A DNA stretch of 64,000 bases from Fulvivirga ligni (GTDB lineage Bacteria; Bacteroidota; Bacteroidia; Cytophagales; Cyclobacteriaceae): positions 5,375,001-5,439,000 of the forward strand of contig NZ_CP089979.1 in NCBI RefSeq assembly GCF_021389935.1, given 5' to 3'. Shown piece by piece: positions 11,265 through 22,342 of this stretch; the stretch's first letter is position 1, and the number at the start of each line of letters is the position of its first letter. Position numbers and translations under genes: made by a program. The notes under the pieces were generated by a model. That model was not told where the DNA came from. It saw only the letters and a list, made by a program, of their open reading frames with translations, and did no database searches.

Positions 11265-11882
11265 ATGCTAAAGAAACAACTTATATATATACTGATTGCA
11301 GGCATTTTTGTTTTATCTGGCTTTAATTCAGAGCAAAAAACCATTCTCTTTTTTGGCGATAGCCTTACGGCCGGTTATGGTTTATCTAAAGAACAGGCTT
11401 TCCCCGCTCTTGTGGAAGACCAGCTCAGCGCTAAAAACATGAATTACAAGGTAATAAACGCTGGTTTAAGCGGTGAAACATCTGCCGGGGGCCTTTCCAG
11501 AGTAGACTGGATTCTAAAGCAGCCTGTCGATGTGTTTGTATTGGAGTTAGGAGCCAATGATGGCTTACGCGGATTACCTCTAGACCAGACCCGCAATAAC
11601 CTGCAGGGCATTATTGATAAGGTGAAAAAGAAAAACCCCAACGTAAAAATAGTGATCGCTGGGATGATGGTACCACCCAATCTGGGCCCTGATTATAGCA
11701 GTGAATTCCAAAAGATATTCCCACAAATTGCTAAGAAAAATAATGCCACCCTTATCCCCTTTTTACTGAAAGATGTAGCTGGAGATACCAACCTGAACCA
11801 AGCAGACGGTATTCACCCCAATGTAAAAGGGCATAAGATAGTCGCTGATAATGTGATGGAGGTGTTGAAGGGAATTTTGTAG
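11265..11882 (+). CDS. tesA: SGNH/GDSL hydrolase, TesA-like arylesterase
   Basis: A 205-residue secreted lipolytic enzyme. An N-terminal hydrophobic signal (about 1-20) is followed by block I FFGDSLTAGYG with the catalytic Ser near residue 33. Block III ELGANDGLRG carries the oxyanion Asn, and block V DGIHPNVKGH carries the catalytic Asp and His. The arrangement and length match TesA (thioesterase I / lysophospholipase L1 / arylesterase), located in the periplasm. It is divergent from the YbbA/YbbP-like genes. The last eight codons (ending EVLKGIL) lie inside a tandem duplication: a second, startless copy of the gene end occurs about 234 bases downstream. Confidence 0.9.
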   Translation: MLKKQLIYILIAGIFVLSGFNSEQKTILFFGDSLTAGYGLSKEQAFPALVEDQLSAKNMNYKVINAGLSGETSAGGLSRVDWILKQPVDVFVLELGANDGLRGLPLDQTRNNLQGIIDKVKKKNPNVKIVIAGMMVPPNLGPDYSSEFQKIFPQIAKKNNATLIPFLLKDVAGDTNLNQADGIHPNVKGHKIVADNVMEVLKGIL

Positions 11883-12088
11883 TGTGCATTTTGACGAAGC
11901 AGTTTGACGAACCTTAATTTTCAACCTCTTTTTTGGATATCTCCGCCTCTGTTGGTGTTATCACGTGTTATCACCGACAGAACTACGGATTTTTCAGTTT
12001 ATCCCACTCAAGTTTTAACCGAAATTCCAATTAATAAATATGTCCCGCTTCCATCCAAATTGTTGGTGATAACACCAACAATGGCATA
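11855..12088. repeat. Tandem repeat unit 1 (about 234 bp)
   Basis: Begins inside the last codons of the SGNH hydrolase gene (GATGGAGGTGTTGAAGGG) and is echoed 234 bases later. It contains TGTTGGTGTTATCAC-type palindromic pieces, including a perfect 10-bp tandem duplication GTGTTATCAC at 11955-11974. It ends with a 20-bp inverted repeat at 12061-12080. The open frame here (from 11904) is repeated in the second unit and has no signs of being a gene. Confidence 0.85.
12061..12080. repeat. 20-bp inverted repeat of a dispersed family
   Basis: TGTTGGTGATAACACCAACA: 8-bp arms and a 4-base centre, extendable to 10-bp arms (12059-12082). A copy with one mismatch lies at 22147-22166, and related variants sit at 11952-11979 and 12184-12203. 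It may be a REP-like element. Confidence 0.8.
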
Positions 12089-12300
12089 GATGGAGGTGTT
12101 GAAGGGGATTTTGTAGTGTGCATTTTGCTGAGGCAGTTTGACGAACTTTAATTTTAACCTCCTTTTTTGGATATCTCCGCCTCTGTTGGTGTTATCAGCG
12201 ACAGAGCTAGGGATTCTTCAGTTACTACTACTGAAGTTTCATCAGAAATTCCAATTAATAAATCGCTACCGCTACCCACTTAATGGCATAGCGCTTTACA
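12089..12300. repeat. Tandem repeat unit 2, diverged
   Basis: A second copy of the 11855-12088 unit. It opens with GATGGAGGTGTTGAAGGG and TTTTGTAGTGTGCATTTTG, then shares the TTGGATATCTCCGCCTCTG block and the GAAATTCCAATTAATAAAT block, and ends near ATGGCATAG. It is diverged and somewhat shorter than unit 1, lacking the 20-bp inverted repeat at its end. Together with unit 1 it fills the non-coding gap between the hydrolase and BlaI genes. Confidence 0.8.
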
Positions 12301-16822: not shown

Positions 16823-19800
16823 ATGAATGAATCAAATTATTCCTACACTGAGTTTTTAGAGGAAACTGTAGACCTTACACAATCTATCCACGCACATATT
16901 ATAAAGCAGGCTACTAAGCAGCCTGACAAAACCGCTATTATTGATCAATCAGAATGTATAAGCTATGAGCAACTGCTTTCTAAATCAGAAGACATTGCTA
17001 ACGAAATACTTTCCAGAGACATTCAGCCAGGCGCCTTGGTTGGGGTCTGTATGAGCAGAAGTTGGGAGCTCATAGCCACAGTACTAGGCATACTGCAATC
17101 TGGTTGTGCCTATGTTCCCCTAGACCCAAAATACCCAAGAGAAAGAATTCGATTTATGCTCCAACACTCTAAAGCAGCGGCAGTAGTTGTAGATGATACC
17201 ATTACCAGCGAATTATGTAAAGGATTTCAATTAATAAACAAGAACTCTCTTTCACAAGCTCGCCCTCTTGAATTGCCAACCGTATCCACCTCCAGCTTAG
17301 CATATGTAATTTATACTTCAGGATCTACAGGTCAGCCTAAAGGTGTAGCTATTGAGCATAGAAATGTGTTAGCCATGATTAATGCTATGAATGAGATCCT
17401 GGACAATAAAGATTTAGAGGGCATGTTAGCAGCCACTTCTATCTGCTTTGATCCTTCTGTCTCAGAAATACTTGGTACCCTCGCACTTGGAGGCAGCGTA
17501 ATCTTAGCCAAAAACATGCTTGACCTGCCGGAACTAGACAAAAAAGGCCTCATAAAAAGTTGTGTGGTTGTTCCTTCAGCCGTTCAGGCTTTACTTTCAT
17601 CAGGATGGAAACCTGAAGGAATCAGAACCATCATTTTTGGTAGCGAAGCACTGAAGCAGCCATTGGTTGAAAAACTCTTCGCTTTAAATATAAGTGCGAG
17701 AATATTTAATGCTTATGGCCCTACTGAAGACACCGTTTTCTCTACCTACACTGAAATTTTAGATGCCACTCAACCTATCACCATCGGCCAATCAGTACCT
17801 TATTCCAATTCATACATTCTAAATGAGGATATGACCCCTGTAAAATCAGGTGAAGCAGGTGAGCTTTATCTTGCAGGCAGCAAACTGGCCAGGGGCTATT
17901 TGTTTGATGAGTCCAAAACTGATGAGCGTTTTATCCAAATCAAGTCCGAACATATTACCGAATCCAGAATATACAAAACCGGAGACCTATGCCGTAGGTT
18001 GAAGAATGGAAATATTGAATTTCTGGGAAGAATAGATCAGCAAGTGAAAGTAAAGGGCTTCAGAATAGAATTGAAAGAAATTGAATCGGTGCTGGAATCT
18101 AAGGAAGGAGTAATTACTGCTGCCGCTCTGGTGACAGATGGCCTGCATGAACAACAAGTTTTGACAGCCTTTGTGACCTGCAGTGACCATCATACATCTA
18201 CAGATTGTCTAAAATCCCATCTATCTGACCGCTTGCCAAAATATATGATACCCCAGGTAATCCACATCACAGATAGCCTGCCTCTTTTACCTAACGGAAA
18301 AGTAGATCGCAATCAGTTGATCCGTCTATCTAAAAATTCTCACAAAACGACGCCAACTCCTATTAAAACAAATAAAGATATAACCTTTGATCAATCAGAT
18401 ATTTTAGAGGTTATTCAGGATACAACAGCCTCATTATTAGGCTATAAAGACTCGATCGAAATAGCTATAGATCTATCATTTGAAAGCATGGGCATAGACT
18501 CTCTTGCCTCTGTAGAACTAAGCAGTAGGCTAGCAAAAGCCTTGAATATACCTTTACCGGTAAACATTATTCTGGAGTACCCCACAGCCGAAGAACTAGC
18601 TCATTATATTATCAATATGAATTCGAAGGATAATAATCCACTTAGAAGTAAGCAAAAATCCTCCAACTCGCTGGCTACATTTCAAACCCAAATTCAATCC
18701 AGTCACCCCACCTTCCAAGCAGCCAAAATTAATGCCTGGTCTGTTAACGATAAAAGTAAATTAGTGCAGGAGGTGCTACATATGGTAAATAGTCAACGAA
18801 GAAATCCATATAGTAAAGTTCTTCGAACGGGTAGTGCTACACATGGTTTAGTTAGTGATGCTTATTCTGATGAGGAACAAGATGCTATTATCTGGACCAC
18901 CAATTTATACCTTGGGCTCAACAGAGATAAGGAAGTAATTCAGGAATCATCAAAAGCTCTGCATAGTTTTGGGACAGGTATGGGTACGTCTGCAGCAGCC
19001 TCCGGCATGACCGACTTGCATCTGACCTTTGAAAAAGAGTTTGCTAAGCTTACCGGCAAGCCAAGCGCCTGCCTCTTCCCTACCGGGTATACGGCTAATC
19101 TGGGAGCTGTTGCTGGCATTTTAAACCATAATGATGTGGTAGTGATCGATCAACTCTGCCATGCTTCCATTGTGGATGGCGCAAGACTTAGTCGCGCCTC
19201 CATTAGGACCTTCAAACATAATAATATAGCCGACCTTGAAGAAATACTTAAAACAGAAGTATCTGCCTATAGAACCACCCTGGTAGTATTAGAAGGTGTC
19301 TATAGCATGGGCGAAGGTGCGGCCCCTGTAGCTGATATAGTGAGAATGGCCAAAAAATATGATGCCTTAGTACTTGTAGATGAAGCACACTCCTTCGGAT
19401 TTTACGGAGATGGCGGAGCAGGTATATGTGCTGCGCAAGGAATAACTGAGGATGTAGATTTTATTATGACCACATTAAGCAAGGCCCTTGGTAGCATAGG
19501 CGGTGTGGTTTCAGCATCTCAAGAGCATATCGACCTCATTAAATCATCATCAAGGGCATATATTTTCCAGGCTTCCATTAGTCCTGCTGATATGGCTGCT
19601 GCACTTATAGCTCTTCGAAGACTTCGGTCGGATGATGCGCTGAGAGAAAGACTTTGGAACACCACACGGTATATGCGTAAGAGATTTACAGAAGAAGGCT
19701 ATGATCTTGGCACTGGGGATGGACCAATCGTTACACCTCATTTCAGCAATAAAGATAAACTATACGGTTTGGTACAGGAGATGTATAAAAGAGGTGTTCA

Positions 19801-20383
19801 AACCTCAGCGGTAACGTATCCTATAGTAGAACCTGGAAGAGGTCGGCTAAGGTTGATTTGCTCGGCGGCACATACTTTTGAAGATGTTGACAAGACTTTA
19901 AAAGTTCTAAAAGAGGCTGAAGAGGTAGTAGATCATCAACTGAAGATGTCACAAAACCATCATAGAAAGGCAAAATATCTCGTCCGGGCTGACCTAGACA
20001 AATGGGCGAACATCTTTGTTGAATATCTAAATAGCGCTGTTTTCACCTCTCAATCCTTAATACCAGATTTATTGATATCAATAAAAACTTTGAAAGCCAC
20101 TACTCCATTAAATATTGTCGTTGATAATGGAATAGCCAAAATGAACACGGCACATACTGATAATGTAACCAAATCCGTCCTCCTCTTTAAGGACGATGAT
20201 ACCCTTCATGCTTTATATAGATTAAACATTCAAGAGATATTACTTGGTATCAGCCAAGGCACTTGCGTGTTAGAAGGTGATGTAGAGCCCTTTACCTGGT
20301 TTATGGCTAGAATTAAGGATCTACATGAAAACAGTCTGGCCTCTAAAACAAATGAGTTTAATGAAACAGAAACCTTGGCATAA
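16823..20383 (+). CDS. Adenylation-ACP-alpha-oxoamine synthase fusion enzyme
   Basis: A 1186-residue multidomain enzyme. Residues about 20-500 form an NRPS-type adenylation domain: A3 [10 protein letters not shown] near 165, A4 FDPSVSE with the amino-binding Asp near 210, A5 NAYGPTE near 296, A7 YKTGDL, A8 [15 protein letters not shown] near 402 and A10 PNGKVDR with the catalytic Lys near 493. Residues about 525-600 form a carrier domain with GIDSL (Ser near 560) and a PKS-like SVELSSRL. Residues about 640-1035 form a PLP-dependent alpha-oxoamine synthase: GTGMG, DEAHSFG near 853 and the Schiff-base Lys in TTLSKALG near 887. The last 130 residues have weak SCP2-like character (inference). The plan predicts loading of an acyl or aminoacyl group on the carrier and decarboxylative condensation with an amino acid to give an aminoketone. 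An SDR gene follows. Confidence 0.88.
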
Positions 20384-20489: not shown

Positions 20490-21215
20490 ATGAAAAAAGT
20501 ATTGATAACAGGTGCAAACAAAGGAATTGGTTTTCAGGTAGCTAAGCAAATGGCAGAAAAAGGCTATTATGTTTATTTGGGATGTAGAGATTTAGAAAGA
20601 GGCCAGGAGGCTGTAAATAAATTAGTAGCGGAAGGTCTTTCAAATGTAGAGGTTTTAGTAATAGATGTAGCTGATAGCGAATCGATTATAAAGGCAAAAG
20701 AGGTGTATGAGCAAAAAGAGGAAAGCCTTGATGTACTTATTAACAACGCAGGAATTTCATTCATGCAGGCTCCACAGTTGGCCTCTGTTGTTCAGACTGA
20801 TGCCATAAAACAAATCTTCGCTGTGAACTTTCATGGGGTAATAGAAACTACACAACAGTTTTTACCACTACTGAAAAAGTCTGATGCTCCTAGAATAGCC
20901 AATGTGAGTAGTGACTTAGGTTCTCTCACTACACAAAGTAATTATGACTGGCAGCATGCCATGATAAAACCTGTGGGTTACATTTCTTCCAAAGCTGCGT
21001 TGAACGCTTTTACTGTAGCTTTAGCTTATGAATTGAAGGACTCAAACTTTAAGGTGAATAGTGTAAACCCTGGAGCAACGGCCACGGACCTCAATAATCA
21101 TATGGGATCAAGAACTCCAGAGTTTGCGGCTCAAATTATAGTAGAATGTGCTACCTTACCTGAAGATGGCCCAAGTGGTAAATTCTTCAGCGAAGAAGGC
21201 TTTTTACCGTGGTAA
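20490..21215 (+). CDS. SDR-family NAD(P)-dependent oxidoreductase
   Basis: A 241-residue classical short-chain dehydrogenase. The cofactor motif is TGANKGIG at the N-terminus, the structural motif NNAGIS lies near residue 86, and the catalytic Ser (VSSDLG) and YxxxK (YISSKAA) are present. It most resembles carbonyl-reductase-type SDRs; the substrate is unknown. It lies 106 bases after the adenylation-AOS fusion, so it could reduce that enzyme's ketone product, as 3-ketosphinganine reductase does after serine palmitoyltransferase. Equally it could pair only with the AraC gene nine bases downstream, since SDR-AraC neighbours are common. Confidence 0.88.
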   Translation: MKKVLITGANKGIGFQVAKQMAEKGYYVYLGCRDLERGQEAVNKLVAEGLSNVEVLVIDVADSESIIKAKEVYEQKEESLDVLINNAGISFMQAPQLASVVQTDAIKQIFAVNFHGVIETTQQFLPLLKKSDAPRIANVSSDLGSLTTQSNYDWQHAMIKPVGYISSKAALNAFTVALAYELKDSNFKVNSVNPGATATDLNNHMGSRTPEFAAQIIVECATLPEDGPSGKFFSEEGFLPW

Positions 21216-21224
21216 TTGAATAGA

Positions 21225-22133
21225 ATGGAACAGCGAGAGATAAAGAATGTAAAAACCATATCTGAATATCATCAGATTATGGGATTGCCATCGCCAGATC
21301 ATCCACTTATCAGTGTTATAGACATCGGTAAGCATAGTCTGGATGGCGACTCCACCGTATTTAGCTTCAGCTTTTATGCCATAGCCATTAAGAGAGATTT
21401 CTCTGGAAAAATGCGTTATGGCCAGCAAGAGTACGACTTTGATAACGGCATGATGACCTTTATCTCTCCCAAGCAGGTGTTTTCATTTGAGAGCAATAAG
21501 AAATCATGTACTTCAGGATGGCTTATATTAATCCATCCTGATTTCATGTGGAACAGCACATTGGCCACAGCTATTGATCAATACGAGTTCTTTGATTACA
21601 GTACCAATGAAGCACTGTTTCTCTCTGAAAAAGAGGAAAATCTGATCATTAATATCATTCAGATTATTCAGCAAGAGTATCATACAAACCTGGATGGTTA
21701 CAGTCAGGAAATCATCATTGCGCAAATAGAGTTATTATTAAAATATGCTCAGAGATTTTATCAAAGGCAGTTTCTAACTAGATCAAAAGCTAATCATGAA
21801 GTACTGACGCAGCTTGAAAGCCTACTTAGTGAGTATTTCAATGGCCCAAATCTCACTGATAAAGGCATGCCTTCAGTACAGTTTGTTGCAGATGCACTGC
21901 ATCTATCTCCCAACTATTTGAGCAGGCTATTACAAACACTTACAGGCCAAAGTACCAAGCAATTTATTCAGGATAAACTGATCCATCTGGCCAAAGAAAA
22001 ACTCACCACTACCAACCTAACCATCAGCCAAATAGCCTATGAGTTAGGTTTTGATTACCCACAGTCTTTTACCAAGCTATTCAGAGCTAAGACAAATCAA
22101 TCGCCATTGGAATTTAGGAAGTCTTTTAATTGA
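21225..22133 (+). CDS. AraC-family transcriptional regulator
   Basis: About 302 residues. The N-terminal half is a cupin-like effector domain (FSFYAIAIKR, FDNGMMTFISPKQVF). The C-terminal AraC DNA-binding domain has two helix-turn-helix units (VQFVADALHLSPNYLSRLLQ and ISQIAYELGFDYPQSFTKLF). A reading from TTG at 21216 is open, but the ATG at 21225 is preferred; it lies nine bases after the SDR stop, so the two genes form an operon. The likely target is the SDR gene or the fusion-SDR-AraC cluster. Confidence 0.88.
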   Translation: MEQREIKNVKTISEYHQIMGLPSPDHPLISVIDIGKHSLDGDSTVFSFSFYAIAIKRDFSGKMRYGQQEYDFDNGMMTFISPKQVFSFESNKKSCTSGWLILIHPDFMWNSTLATAIDQYEFFDYSTNEALFLSEKEENLIINIIQIIQQEYHTNLDGYSQEIIIAQIELLLKYAQRFYQRQFLTRSKANHEVLTQLESLLSEYFNGPNLTDKGMPSVQFVADALHLSPNYLSRLLQTLTGQSTKQFIQDKLIHLAKEKLTTTNLTISQIAYELGFDYPQSFTKLFRAKTNQSPLEFRKSFN

Positions 22134-22310: not shown

Positions 22311-22342
22311 AAAAAAAGCCGACATGTGATCATGTCGGCTTT
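22311..22342 (-). terminator. Rho-independent terminator of the outer-membrane protein gene
   Basis: A 12-bp perfect stem (AAAGCCGACATG and its complement) with a 4-base loop. Read on the minus strand it is followed by a T run and lies about 23 bases after the stop of the 22365-23405 gene. Confidence 0.85.

Follow-up and report, generated by a model that had tools for sequence, protein, structure and literature searches.

What would a bacterium make with a single protein that joins the activating and carrier domains of an NRPS to a PLP-dependent alpha-oxoamine synthase (AOS)? The question is raised by a gene of Fulvivirga ligni at 16823..20383 (+) of the window, the whole stretch of 64,000 nucleotides analysed here (positions 5,375,001-5,439,000 within one 6,523,894-base contig). 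The gene is complete, a single unbroken ORF of 1186 amino acids plus stop, and 13 other full-length proteins could be aligned with its product. Specifically, Pfam, NCBIfam and the alignment place an NRPS-type adenylation (A) domain at residues 28-500 (16904..18322, +), with AMP-binding at 28-360 (234.4 bits, Pfam cut-off 29.9) and AMP-binding_C at 419-493 (33.3 bits, cut-off 24.5); a phosphopantetheine carrier (T) domain occupies residues 530-596 (18410..18610, +; PP-binding, PF00550, 51 bits, cut-off 20.8); a conserved segment at residues 626-686 (18698..18880, +) links the carrier to the AOS domain, residues 687-1031 (18881..19915, +), where Aminotran_1_2 matched at 688-1028 (146.8 bits, cut-off 19.7); and a C-terminal domain without a Pfam family covers about residues 1061-1165 (about 1040-1170 at widest; 20003..20317, +). 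Asp210, Lys493, Ser560, His780, Asp853, His856, Lys887 and Arg1010 are invariant in all 14 full-length proteins, that of F. ligni included, and the identical domain order and residues in the 14 rule out chance or an assembly error as the source of the fusion. The initial annotation had described an A domain, a carrier and an AOS in one chain with intact motifs, and the ORF, the domain scores and the conservation bear this out, with the carrier Ser560, the PLP Lys887 (TTLSKALG) and Asp853/His856 (DEAHSFG) at the positions it had given. Its three-domain plan holds for these parts, but is incomplete, as it overlooked the C-terminal domain. No Rfam family reached its gathering score within the 64-kb window.

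A search for further A-carrier-AOS fusions, as the initial annotation had advised, revealed a conserved family, of which 14 full-length copies were compared (G000, G253, G243, G262, G013, G285, G231, G037, G186, G275, G165, G107, G814 and G865; the G275 copy reaches a contig end and may be missing its first residues). At E 1e-80 the protein had matches in 51 of the 390 genomes sampled across the family; 12 of these, including F. ligni, carry it in full length, G002, which was excluded from the aligned set, has it in pieces on two contigs, and the remaining 38 contain NRPS-type A-T stretches. The enzyme is present in 10 of the 15 genomes of the genus. Three of 241 genomes matched in the order sample at E 1e-90, namely F. 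ligni together with G814 and G865 from another family, and only F. ligni did so among the 395 genomes of the phylum sample at E 1e-110. A search at 1e-85 of 398 genomes from the phylum of G986, a Rickettsiales MAG, gave no match, but had no positive control and is uninformative. None of 72,556 plasmid records had a single place covering 80% of the protein, none of 18 candidate stretches in viral contigs was confirmed, and a scan of genome contigs, with poor peptide patterns, returned eight loci matching in the AOS part only. Nineteen phage records also matched the AOS part, none of them covering 80%; two of the 10 phage matches listed are annotated as 2-amino-3-ketobutyrate CoA ligase.

Full-length identity among the 14 proteins ranged from 56 to 91%. 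Based on 12 proteins, mean pairwise identity was 0.66 in the A core, 0.58 in T, 0.85 in the segment preceding the AOS, 0.87 in the AOS and 0.48 in the C-terminal domain, the AOS domain being the most conserved part. For A, T and AOS, dN/dS was clearly below 1 in all five pairs analysed by NG86 (for the AOS, dN 0.013-0.059 against dS 0.41-1.55), and in the C-terminal domain it was below 1 in the four pairs with a computable dS, with the highest ratio in G814/G865 (0.061/0.18). The enzyme is under purifying selection. The G814 and G865 copies are 77-82% identical to those of G285, G231 and G037, whereas copies from the same genus drop to 56-59%, and in the AOS tree they are nested within the G285/G231/G037 group (98/99). 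Such identity between copies of different families suggests transfer, which appears likelier than ancient paralogy as a source of this pattern.

The C-terminal domain was found in 13 of the 390 genomes of the taxonomic family, exactly the 13 that carry the enzyme. The F. ligni domain had no Pfam match, and among 12 homologous C-terminal segments a single one matched PF21930, at E 9.6e-4 (given without a cut-off), the remainder being weaker. An SCP2 identity, suggested by eye, was not borne out, there being no PF02036 match or profile similarity: SCP2 was absent from the five Pfam families matched by the 12 segments at E 10, a test weakened by the HMMER filters, and an hhalign comparison with six SCP2 proteins (6 of 14 SCP2 matches) gave a probability of 0.2%, against 0.0-0.3% for control segments, which is a weak test with so few proteins. 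At the other end of the chain, five of the 14 proteins (G262, G285, G231, G037 and G275) are extended by some 55-67 N-terminal residues; the extension of one of them, G262, was compared with Pfam, and nothing scored above cut-off.

We considered which donor the A domain may activate. The domain passed the NCBIfam model for amino acid adenylation domains, TIGR01733 (374.6 bits, cut-off 317.4), and its top PDB matches among those listed were NRPS synthetase chains. The specificity residues, placed by motif spacing, were D210, P211, S214, V249, I271, G273, A297, V305, F306 and K493; their correspondence with GrsA numbering is our assumption. The resulting string, DPSVIGAVFK, is replaced in the homologues by DPMVVGLVFK, DPMVIGLVFK, DPMVIGAVFK, DVMMVGAVFK, DPTAIGAVYK, DTMMVGAVYK or DTMMIGAVYK. 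Because these residues matched no securely callable code and occur in eight versions among the 14 proteins, the donor may differ between homologues or be a non-proteinogenic acid. The Asp/Lys pair typical of domains activating alpha-amino acids (Asp210 and Lys493) is retained in all 14, suggesting that the donor is probably an aminoacyl rather than a fatty acyl group; the activated substrate would probably be a hydrophobic alpha-amino acid. The proposal that the pathway makes a lipid head-group is disfavoured by this pair and by a pocket read as hydrophobic, both of which point to an amino acid donor. The predicted attachment site, Ser560, conserved in all 14 proteins, lies in the F. ligni enzyme in the motif GIDSL, which we take to be an ACP-like carrier motif, and the same genome has two PF01648 (phosphopantetheinyl transferase family) loci that could prime the carrier.

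The AOS domain retains the stacking His780, Asp853, His856, the PLP Lys887 and the carboxylate Arg1010 in 14/14 proteins, and can be aligned along its length with two other proteins, a KBL-like one encoded in the same genome (32% identity) and an AOS resembling serine palmitoyltransferase (SPT; 37%). Among the best 25 of 120 families, it passed no AOS equivalog model, scoring below the NCBIfam cut-offs for SPT (320.9 against 500, 304.7 against 640 and 247.7 against 670), KBL (310.2 against 460 and 247.9 against 493), BioF (313 against 426.45), ALAS (246.9 against 338.55) and the CqsA-type autoinducer synthase NF005526 (191.5 against 428). We compared motifs across 37 AOS rows, comprising the 14 fusions, two solo relatives (L067 and L068) and 21 others, onto which residue numbers from PMC11906848 were transferred by motif. 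In the tree of these rows, the fusions and the two plasmid-borne solos form one clade (support 100/99) separate from the KBL, BioF, ALAS and SPT rows, with several long branches and an unsure deep order. The two solos, L067:7908-9194 on a Rhizobium rhizoryzae plasmid and L068:7908-9215 on a Photobacterium damselae plasmid, came closest to the AOS domain among the relatives identified.

In SPT and ThAOS, according to excerpts of PMC11906848, the carboxylate of the amino acid is bound by Arg residues of the LR-motif loop. The LR-motif Arg is present in all 37 rows, and since Arg1010 aligns with it, a free amino acid is likely to be the PLP substrate. The same excerpts report that Val79 sets the amino acid choice of ThAOS, that KBL also has Val here whereas SPT and AONS carry Ser, Alb29 carries Leu and an ALAS carries Thr, and that ThAOS V79S accepts Gly, Ala, Ser and Aba. 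In our rows, the residue preceding the Arg of the GSR-type motif is Val in KBL and Ser in SPT and BioF, which fits a correspondence with Val79, although the mapping is indirect. The equivalent residue is Ser723 in all 14 fusions, Ser in the annotated ALAS L072 and Thr in a Rickettsiales row; as the ALAS of the paper, unlike L072, has Thr, Ser723 by itself does not name the acceptor. The following residue is Ala724 in the 14 fusions, L067 and L068, but Arg in all 21 comparators, so that the x-R motif (Arg after the amino acid-selecting position) is lacking in the fusion AOS. The domain is still called an AOS by its core residues, the x-R motif as a mark of the superfamily being an observation made here rather than a published rule. 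At the x of the N-x-Y motif, all fusions have Leu and both solos have His, while the 21 comparators have Asn, Asp or Ala. Taken together, the catalytic core appears intact and the substrate neighbourhood altered, which may fit a donor other than acyl-CoA. The Arg-to-Ala change fits an altered site, but the lost Arg could mean changed chemistry instead of a changed donor.

Whether other genes take part was addressed by comparing the neighbourhoods, with flanks of up to about 8 kb per side (more in the window; short or absent for G037, G186, G275 and G002), by BLAST of ORFs of at least 60 aa, at 1e-8 for 12 loci and the two G002 pieces and at 1e-5 for G814/G865. No conserved partner gene was seen in the compared flanks of the 14 loci and the G002 pieces, some of which are short, and the gene therefore behaves as a one-gene pathway. 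One neighbour block downstream is common to G165 and G107 (83-94% identity) and a second is common to G814 and G865; the other matches were at the level of loose superfamilies only (SDR, AraC, ABC ATPases and a few others). An SDR oxidoreductase follows the gene in F. ligni (20490..21215, +), and SDRs occur near four loci. These four are only 27-32% identical pairwise, for which reason a conserved reductase partner was rejected, and the F. ligni SDR, which has three nearer relatives (51-52%) among the SDRs of the same genome, is probably not part of the system. The AraC-type regulator that comes next (21216..22133, +) has relatives beside the G165 locus (42% identity) and beside G275 (22%); the pair in F. 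ligni and G165 is a weak lead, and the regulator a weak candidate only. A terminator and promoter scan revealed no clear operon boundary, with 10 promoter-like sites against 16.6 expected. In the interval from the AraC gene to a convergent neighbour, window positions 22315-22342 form a terminator-like palindrome of 12 pairs that can be read on both strands. Positions 11880-12276, upstream of two genes that look by eye like a BlaI/BlaR pair, contain two-copy repeats with inverted parts, one of 84 bases (copies 90% identical, with a distance of 234 bases) and one of 88 bases (81%, 224 bases). In G865, a tandem repeat with a unit of about 277 bases (L066:6274-8072; besides diverged copies, four that are 87-100% alike) lies just 3' of the A-T-AOS gene.

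These data may be best explained by a decarboxylative, PLP-dependent condensation of a carrier-bound aminoacyl donor with a small free amino acid, giving an alpha,alpha'-diaminoketone and CO2, a reading towards which the sequences incline us slightly. The A domain would adenylate an alpha-amino acid, probably a hydrophobic one, with ATP, and the activated amino acid would be loaded onto the phosphopantetheine arm of T. Within the AOS, a further alpha-amino acid, probably a small one (Ser, Ala or Gly), would form an external aldimine with PLP, and the alpha-carbanion generated from it would attack the carrier-bound aminoacyl thioester. Loss of CO2, as in a decarboxylative Claisen condensation, would then join the two amino acids and release the product, presumably H2N-CHR-CO-CHR'-NH2, at once. 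Both the donor class and the acceptor class in this scheme are presumptive, as is any role of the C-terminal domain. The scheme would need no CoA, condensation or thioesterase domain; an ATP-dependent, carrier-bound route lacking condensation and thioesterase domains had been put forward in the initial annotation and is still the most economical reading of an A-T-AOS protein with intact motifs. A diaminoketone would be reactive and a further step is probably needed, yet a conserved partner gene was not seen.

Other explanations start from the same domains. For example, the acid activated by the A domain could lack an amino group, being a short fatty, hydroxy, keto or aryl acid, and the AOS product would then be an ordinary alpha-aminoketone of the kind known from CAI-1-like signals and sphingoid bases; operons with separate genes for a fatty acyl-AMP ligase, an ACP and an AOS follow this logic and GIDSL is presumably ACP-like, but the TIGR01733 score, the Asp at the alpha-amino-binding position in 14/14 proteins and the NRPS chains at the top of the listed PDB matches make such a donor unlikely. 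That the AOS has drifted to other PLP chemistry, such as non-decarboxylative condensation, racemisation or another release route, would agree with the Ala that replaces Arg in the 14 fusions and both close solos, against Arg in 21/21 others, and with scores below every listed AOS equivalog cut-off; with the core AOS residues, including the carboxylate Arg, intact and a full-length alignment with the KBL-like and SPT-like proteins, we regard it as rather unlikely.

The roles of the two substrates could also be reversed, the tethered amino acid being the PLP substrate, acylated by an outside acyl-CoA or acyl-ACP, with another protein taking the product. The diverged site beside the substrates could be read in this way, but Arg1010, the presumed binder of a free carboxylate, is invariant, and there is neither a release domain in the protein nor a conserved partner gene in the flanks, so that this reversal seems very unlikely. 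The remaining alternative is that the enzyme is one module of a larger NRPS acting in trans, its product feeding another synthetase. Beside the G262 gene, and back to back with it, lies a gene for a 2146-aa NRPS of the order A-T-C-A-T-C (L051:471-6911, -; second T placed by spacing), whose terminal condensation domain could accept an outside amine, and the N-terminal extension of five of the 14 proteins might serve docking. A neighbouring NRPS is, however, found at this one locus of 14; no other flanking ORF of at least 60 aa at the 14 loci and the two G002 pieces (flanks short for G037, G186, G275 and G002) matched A or T at E 1e-3; and the multi-A-domain NRPS block of the F. ligni genome itself, at about 2.51-2.56 Mb, is about 2.8 Mb from the gene. 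We therefore consider an in-trans module quite unlikely.

If the aminoacyl condensation is correct, two amino acids would be joined through carbon without CoA, and no thioesterase would be needed to end an NRPS chain; a single polypeptide, whose gene seems to pass as a unit from one bacterial family to another, would do all of this. We judge it evenly balanced whether the proteins represent a new subfamily of AOSs that carry their own module for amino acid activation and make C-C bonds between two amino acids, so that a single gene is the full pathway to free alpha,alpha'-diaminoketones or derived pyrazines. Such products would be a new small-molecule class to seek in marine Bacteroidota, and the enzyme a compact tool for aminoketone synthesis. 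General cluster finders can be expected to label an A-T-AOS gene merely 'NRPS-like', so that it is easily missed. In section 2.3 of PMC12565237, 14 of 16 clusters have no characterised counterpart, and one of these 14 is an NRPS-like cluster of F. kasyanovii; we would guess that this may be the A-T-AOS gene.

Carrier and AOS are found in one chain in SxtA and PigH; to our knowledge, and in the view of the initial annotation, neither has an adenylation domain. The two solo relatives, L067 (41% identity) and L068 (36%), share the Arg-to-Ala change and the motif NxYLGLNR with the fusion AOS, but their annotation is that of 428-435-aa proteins with a single domain, A and T being absent. SxtA is named as an AOS in the excerpts of PMC11906848, which also state that AONS accepts a CoA or an ACP thioester. 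Contrary to the impression given by the initial annotation, carrier-bound donors are thus not rare among AOSs, and plasmid operons combining a ligase, an ACP and an AOS also exist. We found four of these (L069, L074, L078 and L079, from Klebsiella, E. coli, Pseudomonas and Rahnella), each with a fatty acyl-AMP ligase, an NAD-dependent epimerase/dehydratase, an ACP and an AOS; three of the four lie near lipopolysaccharide or Lpt genes. They contain adenylation, carrier and AOS functions in the same logical order as the fusion, but as separate genes, with a fatty acyl ligase, an added dehydratase-family gene and an AOS of another clade, that of E. coli passing the SPT model (599.9 against 500). 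SgaAB of Pseudomonas fluorescens, as the available portion of PMC12134224 describes it, is comparable in pairing a PKS with an AOS that has SPT activity, for sphingolipid synthesis, but differs in having a PKS rather than an NRPS, in being encoded by two genes and in using serine and a fatty acyl group.

A close characterised fusion is BioWF of Corynebacterium amycolatum, in which, according to excerpts of PMC9544090, an adenylating domain is fused to an AOS and a carboxylic acid and an amino acid yield an aminoketone; that two-domain protein proceeds by way of pimeloyl-CoA, lacks a carrier and belongs to the biotin pathway. The fusion of adenylation and AOS domains as such therefore has a precedent, through CoA, in BioWF. 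The amino acid A-T-AOS form may be without one, no such protein being described among the open-access literature matches listed. We tentatively conclude that the amino acid A-T-AOS combination, for which no description was found among the open-access papers listed, is assembled from known parts, and that its logic has precedents in BioWF and the split operons.
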